From NCBI RefSeq assembly GCF_011250645.1, contig NZ_JAANNO010000008.1:139894-203893 (forward strand): DNA of 64,000 bases, read 5' to 3'. The stretch comes from Motilibacter aurantiacus. Lineage in GTDB: Bacteria > Actinomycetota > Actinomycetes > Motilibacterales > Motilibacteraceae. Below the pieces are notes generated by a model, which saw only the letters and a program-made list of their open reading frames with translations, was not told the origin of the DNA and made no database searches. Positions 55,738 through 60,967 of this stretch are shown here, piece by piece. Position 1 is the first letter of the stretch. Every line of letters begins with the position of its first letter. Made by a program: the position numbers and the translations under genes.

Positions 55738-56323
55738 CCCGCGCCTCGCCCGGCCGCTTCGCTCCTCCAGGCCGCGCGCCGCTCATCCGGCCGGGGGAGC
55801 GAGGCGGCGTGCGCAGGAGCGAGGTATCAGGAGCGCCCGCCGTGTCTCTGCTCAAGCGGCGCGGGCTGCGGCCCGATGCTTTCGCGGAGTGTCCGTGCCC
55901 GAGCGAGGAGGCAGGACGGCAGCCGATCGACGAGGAGTGGACGAGATGCGCAAGATCCTGGACTGGGCCGCCCGTATGGGCTCGACCGTCACCGCCGGCC
56001 CCGCGTGCTCCGGCCCGCGGATGCAGGGCTACCCCGTGGCGCGGGGGCCGCGCTGAGCCTGCCGCACGACCTGTCGCCGAAGCCGCGCAGACCGCCGTTC
56101 CCCGACGGCCGGGAGGCGCGGCTTCCGTGTGCCTGAGGAACCCTTCTCGTCGCGGGTTCCCCGGCGCGCCGAGACGATCCTCACGGGGCCGCGGAGGTGC
56201 TTTACACGCCGGGAACGCCGGCTTCGCGCGGAGGAAACCCTGTCGCACCAGGCTCCGGCCACCCCGAGCCTGCAGCTCCCCCGACTGCTCGGGCCTCTTC
56301 GCTGAACTCCCGGAGGCCTCCTC
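55738..56323. other. 586-bp spacer between flavoprotein and arginine deiminase genes
   Basis: This is the longest stretch without a convincing gene. It holds a 7-bp hairpin (56137-56143 with 56154-56160), a second GC-rich imperfect repeat near 56200, and a ribosome site GGAGG just before the deiminase start. One short frame (55946-56056) has a ribosome site. No known riboswitch is recognised. It could carry a long leader for the secreted deiminase or a small RNA. Confidence 0.5.
55946..56056 (+). CDS. Possible 36-residue peptide
   Basis: ATG at 55946 is preceded by GAGGAG at a suitable distance. The product starts MRKILDWAARMG, an amphipathic segment, and continues Gly/Pro-rich with one Cys. 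No homologue recognised and no signal peptide. The ribosome site is the only positive evidence. Confidence 0.25.
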   Translation: MRKILDWAARMGSTVTAGPACSGPRMQGYPVARGPR

Positions 56324-58204
56324 GTGCATGCCCGCAAACGGACCAGGTCCCACCTCGCGGTGGTCGCGCTCGGCAGCGCCTTGGCCGTCGCGCTCCCGCT
56401 GGCGCCCGCGCCGGCCAACGCCGCGGTGACCGCAGGCCTGACGGCCGACACGAACCGCGACGGCGTGCTGAGCGTCCTCGACGACTCGCTCGAGGACCGG
56501 TTCACCCAGGCCCGAGGCGCGATCCTGCTGGCCAACATCGACGACGACCTGGTGCGCTGCCCCAAGATCAAGGTCGACGGCACCCAGCTCACCGACCTCG
56601 AGCTCGAGGCGTGCAACGACGCCGCGGACGACGTCGTGAACGGCGCGGACGACGTCCTCGACCTCGCCAAGCTGGCGGTGGCCCCCGCGCCCGGCGCGAG
56701 CACGGCCACCGTCACCGTCAACGCCGCGGCCGCCGGCAAGGTGCGGCTCTTCGTCAAGCGCGGCGAGTCGGCGGCGGACTGGGCCGCGCTGCCCGCCGAC
56801 GGCAGGCTGACCGCCGCCGAGGCGGAGGCCGGCGCCACCCTGGGCGTCGAGGCGCGCGACATCATCCGCGACCCGAAGGCCTGGGACGGCACCGTCGACG
56901 TGACGCTCACCGTCCAGGGCGGCGGCACGACGGCGTCCGACGTGGTCCGGTTGCGCGTGGCGCCGCTGCTCTTCGTGACCGACACCATGAAGGTCGACAA
57001 GCTCATGGTGGCCGACTACGAGACCTCGATCTACCAGGGCCGCCCCGTCACCGCTGCCCCTCCGGGCGGCGTCGTGCCCTTCCGCGAGGACATGCGCAAG
57101 GGGCTGGCGAAGATCGGCGTCGAGGCGCCGCTCTACCTGCTCCCGGCCGCCCACGGGCGGAACTCCTCGTTCGACAAGTGGACGCAGGACATCATGGAGC
57201 CGGGCTACATGTCGATGCCGACCGCGGGCGGCGAGGAGCACCGCATGCGCGTCTACGTGCGCGCACCATCCCGCAACACCGCCGCCGACCGTGACGTGAA
57301 CCCGTACCGCAGCACCGGTCGCACGATCTTCACCGTGCTGCGCGGCAAGGACGTCGCCGGCGTCCAGCACTACGACCCGGCCTACCAGCCGGGCTCGATG
57401 AACACGTTCGGCTCGACCGGGAACTACGGCTCGGTGCCGCCGTACTCGCACAACGGCAAGCACTACCCGACCGGCCGCAAGCTCTTCGGCGCCGAGAAGG
57501 ACTTCACGGCCGACCCCGCGTACAACGCCATGCTCGCGAGCCAGGGGTACCAGAAGCCGATCGTGCTCGACACCAGCTGGCTCAGCGTCGGCCACGTCGA
57601 CGAGTTCCTGTCGTTCACCGTCTCGGACAGCCCGCGTGGCTGGTCGCTGATCGCCGCGGACCCGATGCTCGCCGAGAACATGCTCCGGGACCTCGTCGCC
57701 AAGGGCCTCGGGGACCAGAACATCGCCCAGGCGGGCCTTCCCGGCTCGAACCTGCCGACGATGACGGTGAAGGAGGCGCTGAAGGACGAGCGGCTGCGGG
57801 ACGGCGCGCACGTCGCGAAGCGCGGCATCAACGCGGCGCTGAAGATCCTCAAGAAGGAGATCGGCCTCACCGACGCCGAGATCGTGCGGGTGCCGGTGTT
57901 CTACCGCTCCAACACCGCCCCGGCGCGCAACGCGCAGCGGCTCGGTGCGTACCTCCCGGACGCCGCCAACGGCATCGGCACCGGCGAGAAGGTGTGGTTC
58001 TCCCCGCGCCAGCACGGCCCGACGAAGGGCGGCAAGGACGTCTTCGAGGACGTCACGGAGAAGGCGCTGGCGAAGGTCGGCGTCGAGGTCCACTGGGTCG
58101 AGGACTGGCAGTACGCCCACTCCGGAAGCGGTGAGATCCACTGCGTCTCGAACGTCGAGCGCGACCTCACCGCCACGGTCCCCTGGTGGACCGAGACTTC
58201 CTGA
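56324..58204 (+). CDS. Secreted protein-arginine deiminase (PAD family)
   Basis: This 626-residue protein starts with a signal peptide (KRTRSHLAVVALGSALAVAL, then APANAAV). An Asp-rich TADTNRDGVLSVLDDS stretch like a calcium-binding loop and an immunoglobulin-like N-terminal part follow. The catalytic domain has all four PAD active-site residues: Asp289 (KWTQDIMEPGYM), His424 and Asp426 (VGHVDEFLSF) and Cys607 (GEIHCVSNV). They correspond to Asp350, His471, Asp473 and Cys645 of human PAD4. It converts peptidyl-arginine to citrulline, probably outside the cell and calcium-dependent. The GTG follows GGAGG. Unlike the agmatine-deiminase-like enzyme of Porphyromonas, it resembles the vertebrate PAD core. 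Confidence 0.88.
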   Translation: MHARKRTRSHLAVVALGSALAVALPLAPAPANAAVTAGLTADTNRDGVLSVLDDSLEDRFTQARGAILLANIDDDLVRCPKIKVDGTQLTDLELEACNDAADDVVNGADDVLDLAKLAVAPAPGASTATVTVNAAAAGKVRLFVKRGESAADWAALPADGRLTAAEAEAGATLGVEARDIIRDPKAWDGTVDVTLTVQGGGTTASDVVRLRVAPLLFVTDTMKVDKLMVADYETSIYQGRPVTAAPPGGVVPFREDMRKGLAKIGVEAPLYLLPAAHGRNSSFDKWTQDIMEPGYMSMPTAGGEEHRMRVYVRAPSRNTAADRDVNPYRSTGRTIFTVLRGKDVAGVQHYDPAYQPGSMNTFGSTGNYGSVPPYSHNGKHYPTGRKLFGAEKDFTADPAYNAMLASQGYQKPIVLDTSWLSVGHVDEFLSFTVSDSPRGWSLIAADPMLAENMLRDLVAKGLGDQNIAQAGLPGSNLPTMTVKEALKDERLRDGAHVAKRGINAALKILKKEIGLTDAEIVRVPVFYRSNTAPARNAQRLGAYLPDAANGIGTGEKVWFSPRQHGPTKGGKDVFEDVTEKALAKVGVEVHWVEDWQYAHSGSGEIHCVSNVERDLTATVPWWTETS

Positions 58205-58260: not shown

Positions 58261-58373
58261 CGTGCCGCCGCACGCCTGGCGGCACGCGGGCTCGGGATGC
58301 GCTCCGACGGATCCGGTCGTACGTTGCTCAAGCAGGCGAATCGCTTCCCGTCAACGATCGGAAGGAACGACTC

Positions 58374-58991
58374 ATGCGTGCTTCAGGCAACGCCCTCCGC
58401 CTCCTGGCCGCGGTCCCCGCGGTCGCGCTCGCCGCGGTCATGGCCCCGGCCCCCGCCCAGGCCGCGGACCGCTCCCTCGCGACGGTGCTGACGTCGGACG
58501 GCAACACGTTCGACCGCAACGCGGCCGACTTCGACGTGCTCACCGAGGCCGTCCTCGCCGTGCTCGAGGCCAAGCCGAACTCTCCGGTGAAGGCGCTGAC
58601 CCAGGCGGGCACGGCCCTGACGGCGTTCGCGCCCAACGACCGGGCCTTCCGCTCGCTCGTCACCGACCTCACCGGCAAGCGCGTGCCCGCGGAGAAGCAG
58701 GTCTTCGCCGCGGTGGCCGGGCTGGGCATCGACACCGTCGAGACAGTGCTGCTCTACCACGTCGTGCCCGGCGCGGCGCTGGCCTCGCCGAAGGTGCTCG
58801 CCTCCGACGGCGCGACCCTCACCACGGCCCAGGGCGGCTCCCTCATCGTCCGCGTGGAGGGGAGCTCGGTGACCCTTCGCGACCAGGACCCGGACGACAC
58901 CAACCCGGTCGTGGCCGCCGTCGACGTGAACAAGGGCAACCGGCAGATCGCGCACGTGATCGACCGGGTGCTGCGGCCCGCCGACCTGTAG
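58374..58991 (+). CDS. Secreted fasciclin-domain protein
   Basis: The protein has 205 residues. A signal peptide (LRLLAAVPAVALAAVMAPAPAQA) precedes a FAS1 domain with DFDVLTEAVLAVLE, the H1 box ALTAFAPNDRAFRSL, the YH motif VLLYHVVPG and the H2 box AAVDVNKGNRQIAHVIDRVLRP. FAS1 domains mediate adhesion or surface contacts. The start is ATG at 58374 behind GGAAGGA. It follows the deiminase but is separated from it by a terminator. Confidence 0.9.
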   Translation: MRASGNALRLLAAVPAVALAAVMAPAPAQAADRSLATVLTSDGNTFDRNAADFDVLTEAVLAVLEAKPNSPVKALTQAGTALTAFAPNDRAFRSLVTDLTGKRVPAEKQVFAAVAGLGIDTVETVLLYHVVPGAALASPKVLASDGATLTTAQGGSLIVRVEGSSVTLRDQDPDDTNPVVAAVDVNKGNRQIAHVIDRVLRPADL

Positions 58992-59042
58992 ACCCCGCTC
59001 CGGGTCGCGGTCCGCAGGACCGCGGCCCGGCATCGGCGGGGC

Positions 59043-60365
59043 TCAGCCGTAGTCCTCGCCCCAGGCGGTGCGGCTCTCGAGCAGGTCGTCGATGTCGGCC
59101 GGGGAGCCACCTCCGGGCAGGTCGTAGGAGTCGACCATGGTCTGCTCGGCCGGCACCCACCAGCGGCGCCAGGTGAAACTGGTGCCGTCGGCGCACTCCG
59201 TCTCCCAAGCCCAGTACTCCGCGGGCTTCCCGCCGACGGTTCGGTCGCCGGAGTCGACGAGAGTCCGCCCGGTGGTGCCGGCTTCGCGGGCCGTCGTGAA
59301 CTGCGCCCCCGCCAGTCGGTTGCATCCACTGGGGATGTCGTGACGGAGCTTCTGCGGGGTCGGCACGTAGCCAAGCACCGACTCCGGGTCCGGAGTGACG
59401 GCGCCGCCCTGGCTCGGGACGCCGCCCTCGCCGGTGAAGAAGGCCTTCCCGCGCACGAGCACACCGTCGACCGGGCAGGTCTGGATACGGTCGATCGGGC
59501 CCGGGCCGACGCAGTCCGCCGCCCGTGAGAAGTCGGTCCAGTCCAGCGGGACCGTGAGGGTCAGGCCGTTGCCCTGGGTGGGGACGTTCATCGTGGTCGG
59601 CTCGGCGGCATCCTCGATCCGCGCGGCCCGCGCCGCGGCGACCGCGTCGGGCTCGGCGGCGTCGGCCCGCAGCACCAGGTCCGTGTCCTCGAAGTGCCAT
59701 TCGACGTAGGCCTTGCCGTCCGGGCACTCCAACCGGGAGCGCTCCGCGGGCCGGGAGCCGACCTGGTCGGGCCCTTCGCCGACCCGTTCCGGTGTACGGA
59801 TCTCCTGGCCCGGCGTGGGCTGCTCGTCCATGCACAGCCACGCCGTCGACATCTGCGAGCTGTCGAACTGAATGTAGCCGTTCGACCCGGCTGCCGACTC
59901 CGCGGTCAGCCGGAGGACGACGACGCCGCCGTCGCATCGTCCGCCGCCCCGCGTCCCCGGTGCGTGCAGGCATGCGGCATCGACGTAGTCGGGAGCGATG
60001 TCAGGCAGCAGGTCGGCGCCGCTCGCCGCGGGCGACGGAGTCGTGCCGCTGCCGTACGGCTCGGCCACCCAGCCCGCGGGCACGTCGACCGTGACCCCCG
60101 CGAACGTCAGCGGTGTGTCCCACGCCCGGGGATCAGGCGAGGCCGACCCGCTCGCCCCCGGCTCTGGCGCGGCCACCTCGTGTGCCCCGTACGTCACGCC
60201 GCCGGCGATCACCCCCAGCAGCGCGGCGGCCACGGCCGGCGCGATCCAGCGGGGTGCGGGGCGCGGGGGAACGGCGGCGGGCACGAGGTCGCCGCCGCGT
60301 ACCGACTCGGCCCGGGCGGCGAGGGCGGCCCGCAGCCGCCGCTCCGTAGGGGTCTCCTCGCTCAT
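59043..60365 (-). CDS. Membrane-anchored partner of a SigE-type sigma factor
   Basis: The protein has 440 residues. A short cytosolic N-terminus (MSEETPTERRLRAALAARAE) precedes a single helix (41-60, IAPAVAAALLGVIAGGVTYG) and a large Cys-containing exterior part with two similar lobes (TFAGVTVDVPAGW and GLTLTVPLDW openings). No enzyme motif is seen. It overlaps the sigma-factor stop by ATGA. By position and topology it may be the anti-sigma factor or sensor for that sigma factor, though no ZAS zinc motif is present. Confidence 0.65.
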   Translation of the reverse strand: MSEETPTERRLRAALAARAESVRGGDLVPAAVPPRPAPRWIAPAVAAALLGVIAGGVTYGAHEVAAPEPGASGSASPDPRAWDTPLTFAGVTVDVPAGWVAEPYGSGTTPSPAASGADLLPDIAPDYVDAACLHAPGTRGGGRCDGGVVVLRLTAESAAGSNGYIQFDSSQMSTAWLCMDEQPTPGQEIRTPERVGEGPDQVGSRPAERSRLECPDGKAYVEWHFEDTDLVLRADAAEPDAVAAARAARIEDAAEPTTMNVPTQGNGLTLTVPLDWTDFSRAADCVGPGPIDRIQTCPVDGVLVRGKAFFTGEGGVPSQGGAVTPDPESVLGYVPTPQKLRHDIPSGCNRLAGAQFTTAREAGTTGRTLVDSGDRTVGGKPAEYWAWETECADGTSFTWRRWWVPAEQTMVDSYDLPGGGSPADIDDLLESRTAWGEDYG

Positions 60366-60910
60366 CGCTTCGCCTCCAGGGCTTTCTCGACCGCGTCGAG
60401 GGCGCGGCTGGCCGTGGACTTCACGGCGCCGCGGGAGATGCCCAGCGTCTCGGCGATCCCGGCCTCGTCGAGGCCGGACCAGTAGCGCAGCACCAGCACC
60501 TCGCGCTGCCTCGGGGCCAGGGCGCGGACGGCATCGAGCACTTCGCGGTGCTCCTCGGCGAGCACCGCCCTCGCCTCGGGGGAGTCGCCGGGCGGCTCGT
60601 GCGGCGGGACGTACCCGCGGGCCGTCCGCCGCCGCCGCAGCGCGGAGCGGGAGGCGTTGACGACCGAGACGCGCAGGTACGCCAGGGCCCGGTCTGGGTC
60701 GGGGAGCAGCCGCCGCGACCGGGCGTGCAGCCCGGCGAAGGCGTCCTGCACGACGTCCTGCGCGGTCTCGAGGTCGTCGACCAGGAGCAGCGCGAGCCGG
60801 ACGAGCCCCAGCCGGTGCGCGGCGTACAGCTCGGGCAGCGTGGCCGGCGCGTCGTCGCCGTCGTCCCCCTCGTCGCGCGCGTGCTGCGCCGCCTCGCCGC
60901 CCTGCGTCAT
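60362..60910 (-). CDS. RNA polymerase sigma factor, SigE-type ECF family
   Basis: This 182-residue protein has region 2 (LPELYAAHRLGLVRLALLLV, then AQDVVQDAFAGLHAR) and region 4 (LAPRQREVLVLRYWSGLDEAGIAETLGISRGAVKSTASRAL). The latter is the WSGL form common to the SigE-like actinobacterial sigma group. ATG at 60910 follows GGGGGAGG; a GTG/ATG further upstream lacks such a site. An acidic N-terminal tail (ARDEGDDGDDA) precedes region 2. It is coupled to a membrane protein that may regulate it. Confidence 0.92.
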   Translation of the reverse strand: MTQGGEAAQHARDEGDDGDDAPATLPELYAAHRLGLVRLALLLVDDLETAQDVVQDAFAGLHARSRRLLPDPDRALAYLRVSVVNASRSALRRRRTARGYVPPHEPPGDSPEARAVLAEEHREVLDAVRALAPRQREVLVLRYWSGLDEAGIAETLGISRGAVKSTASRALDAVEKALEAKR

Positions 60911-60967
60911 CGGCCTCCCCCTCGTCACACCCTGCAAGACACCCGGGGGCCGCGCAGGTTGCGCCGG

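Follow-up and report, generated by a model that had tools for sequence, protein, structure and literature searches.

A 626-residue protein encoded in the window, the 64,000-nucleotide stretch of Motilibacter aurantiacus DNA analysed here, belongs by profile match and alignment to the peptidyl-arginine deiminase (PAD) family. It is favoured here, with moderate confidence, as an exported, stand-alone deiminase built from the PAD_M and PAD_C domains, whose active site probably does not need the calcium switch of the vertebrate enzymes to become ordered. The new element lies in the small clade to which the protein belongs: as read from the alignment, its members keep the catalytic tetrad and the Ca3 and Ca5 ligands of PAD_M and lose the Ca1 glutamate of the catalytic domain. 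A secreted actinobacterial PAD is in itself not surprising, since enzymes of this kind have already been described from many bacteria.

Family assignment and domain architecture

The gene occupies 56324-58204 on the plus strand, the same open reading frame as in the initial annotation, and is the single PAD copy in the genome. It starts with GTG, 7 nt after a ribosome-binding site (GGAGG, 56312-56316, plus strand) that was read directly from the sequence. The initial annotation had proposed PAD family membership, a signal peptide and an Asp-rich, calcium-like segment, and all three were recovered. The sole Pfam match of the 626-aa protein is PF03068 (E 2.7e-76; score 257.5 bits, cut-off 25; covering positions 2-394 of the 395-position profile), which delimits the PAD_C catalytic domain at residues 203-622 (56930-58189, plus strand). 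The human PADs are the closest solved structures (phmmer, E about 1e-31). When a profile of 21 bacterial relatives was aligned to human PAD4, both PAD_M and PAD_C were covered (E 1.8e-84), placing a PAD_M-like domain at 56438-56929 (plus strand). The match begins at PAD4 residue 117; according to this alignment the PAD_N domain is absent and the mature protein begins at the PAD_M calcium loop. AlphaFold2 models were of very low confidence (pLDDT 34 from the single sequence and 41 from a four-sequence alignment), and pocket geometry was taken solely from alignment and homology to PAD4.

The N-terminus, MHARKRTRSHLAVVALGSALAVALPLAPAPANA followed by AV, is judged by inspection and hydropathy to be a classical Sec signal peptide, since it combines a basic n-region, a hydrophobic core (Kyte-Doolittle values up to 2.4) and an A-N-A cleavage site. 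It comprises residues 1-33 (56324-56422, plus strand), with predicted cleavage between ANA and AV, so that export is predicted. No anchor is visible beside this export signal. The PADs of the main Streptomyces clade also carry signal-like N-termini. Among the Myxococcota loci (L003, L004 and L022-L050), most PADs show a lipobox-like motif upstream of PAD_M and are probably surface lipoproteins.

The Asp-rich segment consists of a DxNxDG loop (residues 42-47; 56447-56464, plus strand), which in the alignment falls in the Ca6-type loop region of PADs, and of the calcium ligands that follow it in PAD_M. The Ca3 ligands N71, D73, D75, D99, D110 and D113 correspond to N153, D155, D157, D165, D176 and D179 of PAD4, and the Ca5 ligands D102 and E176 to D168 and E252. 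All eight residues are kept. PAD_M further contains a cysteine pair, Cys79 and Cys97; most bacterial PADs have it too, but PAD4 lacks it at these columns. A disulphide between the two, as would suit an exported protein, is possible.

Catalytic residues

The complete catalytic tetrad that the initial annotation had described is confirmed by the alignment. Asp289 (57188-57190, plus strand) maps exactly to PAD4 Asp350, His424 and Asp426 (57593-57601, plus strand) to His471 and Asp473, and the nucleophile Cys607 (58142-58144, plus strand) to Cys645. These residues are invariant across about 98 bacterial sequences, one fragment (L095) being unalignable at the D350 position. The label 'vertebrate-type', which had been attached to the protein, is justified for the tetrad but not elsewhere: PAD_N is missing, the Ca2 ligands are replaced and the Ca1 residue E411 has become a glycine.

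Calcium sites of the catalytic domain

Calcium ligands were mapped with the published lists (PMC5445078, PMC11402830). At the Ca1 positions of PAD4 (Q349, E353 and E411), the Motilibacter protein carries Q288, E292 and G369. Gly369 (57428-57430, plus strand) is a loss specific to the clade. At the Ca2 positions (E351, D369 and N373) it carries I290, R313 and R317. The replacement at D369 by Arg313 (57260-57262, plus strand) is widespread, with an Arg in 87 of 98 bacterial rows, and the Ca2 ligands are missing from every bacterial PAD examined (about 98 aligned). The alignment is unambiguous around the Ca1 motifs. The columns of PAD4 D388 (a Ca4 ligand) and of R372 and R374, at which two alignments disagree, were left uninterpreted. 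As E351, D369 and N373 of Ca2 are all replaced and E411 of Ca1 is a Gly, the vertebrate calcium switch of the catalytic domain is not conserved.

The erosion of Ca1 differs between the branches of the clade. Positions 349/353/411 read Q/E/G in the two Motilibacter species, Q/K/G in the proteins of two Streptomyces plasmids and R/I/L in those of two Streptomyces chromosomes. Among the 92 rows outside the clade, position 349 is Q in all 92, position 353 is E, D or Q in all 92, and position 411 is E or D in 91. The sole exception at 411 is L103, which has a Ser there and branches next to the clade (support 91/80). This protein, likewise lacking the Ca1 glutamate, is one of three divergent PADs (L101, L103 and L106) in a 2.9-Mb actinobacterial genome (G1139) of the same phylum and another class.

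In PAD4 the Ca1 site is catalytically essential, as a triple mutant retains 0.1% of the catalytic efficiency (PMC5445078). Because Ca1 and Ca2 are both directly catalytic in PAD4, the clade should either have an active site that works independently of calcium or resemble PAD6 in being inactive. A further possibility, judged somewhat less likely than not, is that the Motilibacter protein is an ordinary calcium-dependent PAD. Ca1 would then be rebuilt from Gln288, Glu292 and backbone carbonyls, and calcium in PAD_M would still gate activity. In its favour, Ca1 is only partly eroded in the two Motilibacter proteins, both of which retain Gln288 and Glu292, the Ca3 and Ca5 ligands are fully retained, and a cyanobacterial PAD is strictly calcium-dependent (PMC8826395). 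Against this stand the glycine at the Glu411 position, which has no acidic residue nearby, the replacement of all Ca2 ligands, and the further erosion in the sister branches, where E353 has become K or I and Q349 has become R.

Evolution of the clade

The clade has six members, from two Motilibacter species, two Streptomyces plasmids and two Streptomyces chromosomes. It was recovered with support of 100/96 and again in a second tree (SH-aLRT 99). In these trees, which are without fungal or cyanobacterial sequences, it is nested among Streptomyces and other actinobacterial PADs (fork 89/100 and 99). The two plasmid-borne genes (L018 and L021) lie on large linear Streptomyces megaplasmids, each with a response regulator close by. 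In L018 the PAD is followed by a pair of histidine kinase and response regulator genes, and the region has transposases on its flanks. The six proteins also share a linker feature: the histidine linker motif between PAD_M and PAD_C is missing from the whole clade in the alignment. The protein of the window (APLLFVTDTMKVD) has VTD where most relatives have HHL or HHH.

The closest named relative is Motilibacter deserti, with 91% identity. Between these two species the dN/dS of the gene is 0.15, and PAD_C is 96.7% identical compared to 81.3% for PAD_M. The low dN/dS and the identity of PAD_C show that the gene is not a chance reading frame. Strong purifying selection on the catalytic domain favours an active enzyme.

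The same data bear on the improbable reading that the protein is an inactive relative of the PAD6 type, binding a target without modifying it. Human PAD6 offers a parallel for the loss of the Ca1 and Ca2 ligands: it does not bind calcium and lacks activity despite correctly placed Asp and His residues (PMC11402830). However, no member of the clade has lost any of the four catalytic residues or Trp286 (PAD4 Trp347), and of the two domains PAD_C evolves more slowly, the opposite of what is expected under relaxed catalysis. PAD6 has also lost its Ca3-Ca5 ligands and has a displaced Cys, whereas the Motilibacter protein keeps its PAD_M ligands and a strongly constrained catalytic domain; the two are alike in the loss of the calcium ligands of the catalytic domain. 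For the clade as a whole, it is tentatively proposed that its members are active exported PADs with structural calcium in PAD_M and a catalytic domain free of calcium control.

Proposed mechanism

For the favoured reading, the following course can be envisaged. After Sec export, PAD_M would fold around structural calcium at Ca3 and Ca5, perhaps assisted by a Cys79-Cys97 disulphide. Asp289 and Asp426 would hold the substrate arginine together with His424, and Cys607 would attack the guanidinium group. Ammonia would be released and a citrulline left behind. The degeneracy of both Ca1 and Ca2 argues for the lack of a vertebrate-type switch, and the active site would thus probably be ordered in another way.

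Distribution and gene surroundings

The initial annotation regarded citrullination as known mainly from animals. This is out of date: Cummings et al. (2021, PMC8826395) counted PADs in 136 actinobacterial species, and lasso peptides are citrullinated by a PAD of Streptomyces (PMC9266682, PMC12971885). Relatives of the Motilibacter protein are also named 'protein-arginine deiminase family protein' in RefSeq. The initial annotation had proposed to map the spread of the family by profile. Of 393 Actinomycetes genomes, 11 gave a match, which exceeded the family cut-off in 10; matches were also obtained in 66 of 393 Streptomyces genomes and 54 of 195 Myxococcota genomes. Some of all these matches are fragments. 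Together with the 2021 catalogue, the citrulassin PAD and the RefSeq names, these counts are the reason why a secreted actinobacterial PAD is not regarded as unexpected. No PAD was found in three genomes of the same bacterial family (G002-G004). The searched phages and viral contigs were equally devoid of PADs, and phage carriage of the gene thus found no support.

The initial annotation had also pointed to the neighbouring gene, for a secreted, adhesion-type FAS1 protein. In M. deserti the genes upstream of the PAD and the pfkB/aldolase block downstream of it are kept, and a 2.7-kb segment that holds FAS1 together with an ECF-type sigma factor is missing; the PAD directly adjoins the pfkB/aldolase block, and the FAS1 gene lies on another contig. 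FAS1 homologues are moreover present in three related genomes that have no PAD. As a functional partner, FAS1 was therefore rejected. In the window, 58300-60950 holds FAS1, an uncharacterised stretch on the minus strand and the ECF-type sigma factor, and the whole block is absent from the syntenic place in M. deserti; the two closely related species differ here by the insertion, loss or relocation of the block. Across genera, no neighbour gene is common to the PAD loci.

Lasso peptides and other candidate substrates

A distantly encoded Streptomyces PAD (WP_064069847.1) converts Arg9 of citrulassin lasso peptides to citrulline, as was shown genetically (PMC9266682, PMC12971885). Since no substrate of a Streptomyces PAD other than a lasso peptide was found to have genetic proof, lasso genes were searched for in the genome. 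An unlinked cluster is present on the minus strand at L122:5948-8245 (G000:C5, about 319447-321744), beside polysaccharide genes and a DUF6065 protein. It encodes a B2 protease (NF033537, E 1.3e-9), an Asn-synthase-like cyclase and two tandem arginine-containing precursors, MKDYVVPRLTVVGSLEELTARSNAGTSSDMPLAWRGTTFTAFS and MRDYSAPQLTIVGSLERLTAQSTSGTRTDVPIGTPIPPNFALFS, with YxxP leaders. The cyclase, the precursors and a DUF6065-like neighbour are also found in M. deserti (L125).

That the PAD is a tailoring enzyme for the organism's own lasso peptides, as in citrulassin biosynthesis, is nevertheless quite improbable. The distantly encoded citrulassin PAD offers a precedent, an unlinked cluster with two arginine-containing precursors is at hand, and M. 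deserti has the cyclase at 85% identity, whereas the three PAD-less relatives lack it. The arginines themselves are poorly conserved, however: M. deserti has a Gln in place of the ring Arg of precursor 1 and no longer has the tail Arg of precursor 2, and the only Arg kept is the predicted first residue of precursor 2. In 80 Streptomyces genomes, PAD and lasso B2 were not significantly associated (23/40 vs 17/40, Fisher p 0.26), and two other clade genomes (G624 and G845) gave no B2 match. A link to lasso peptides is thus possible but weak. The Motilibacter PAD resembles the citrulassin PAD, by its published description, in being encoded alone and away from a gene cluster; it differs from this enzyme of known substrate in that the lasso precursors of Motilibacter mostly lack a conserved core arginine.

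By analogy with the citrulassin PAD, extracellular peptides or proteins are the most likely substrate class. A narrower proposal, that the enzyme acts on foreign or environmental peptides and proteins for nutrient release, neutralisation of cationic antimicrobial peptides or competition, is considered rather unlikely. It concerns the substrate and is compatible with an exported PAD lacking the vertebrate switch. The export signal without a visible anchor, the orphan gene context, the patchy distribution and the plasmid carriage in Streptomyces all agree with a foreign substrate, but both Motilibacter genomes keep the gene in the same position, which is just as consistent with a role on the organism's own surface proteins.

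Comparison with known deiminases and significance

The exported bacterial protein deiminase PPAD of Porphyromonas gingivalis is calcium-independent and belongs to a different pentein family. The Motilibacter protein is distinguished from it by matching PF03068 alone in Pfam. With human PAD4 and PAD2 it shares the tetrad, the residue equivalent to Trp347 and the Ca3 and Ca5 ligands; it differs from them in its export signal and in the lack of PAD_N and of the Ca1 and Ca2 ligands. The nearest match is the type described for fungi and actinobacteria, which consists of PAD_M and PAD_C only, has a triple-histidine linker and conserves Ca3 and Ca1 but not Ca2 and Ca4, Ca1 being described as conserved in all PADs (PMC8826395). 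The Motilibacter protein agrees with this type in its two domains without PAD_N, its catalytic residues, its Ca3 site and its lack of the vertebrate Ca2 ligands. In contrast, it has VTD instead of the HHH or HHL linker and no Ca1 glutamate.

The characterised PF03068 enzymes in the cited work, namely the human PADs and one cyanobacterial PAD, need calcium for activity. If the Motilibacter/Streptomyces clade proves inactive, it would represent a second, independent PAD6-like case. If it is active without Ca1 and Ca2, it would show how a PAD active site becomes ordered when the calcium switch is absent, and citrullinating enzymes that work without calcium could in practice be developed from it.
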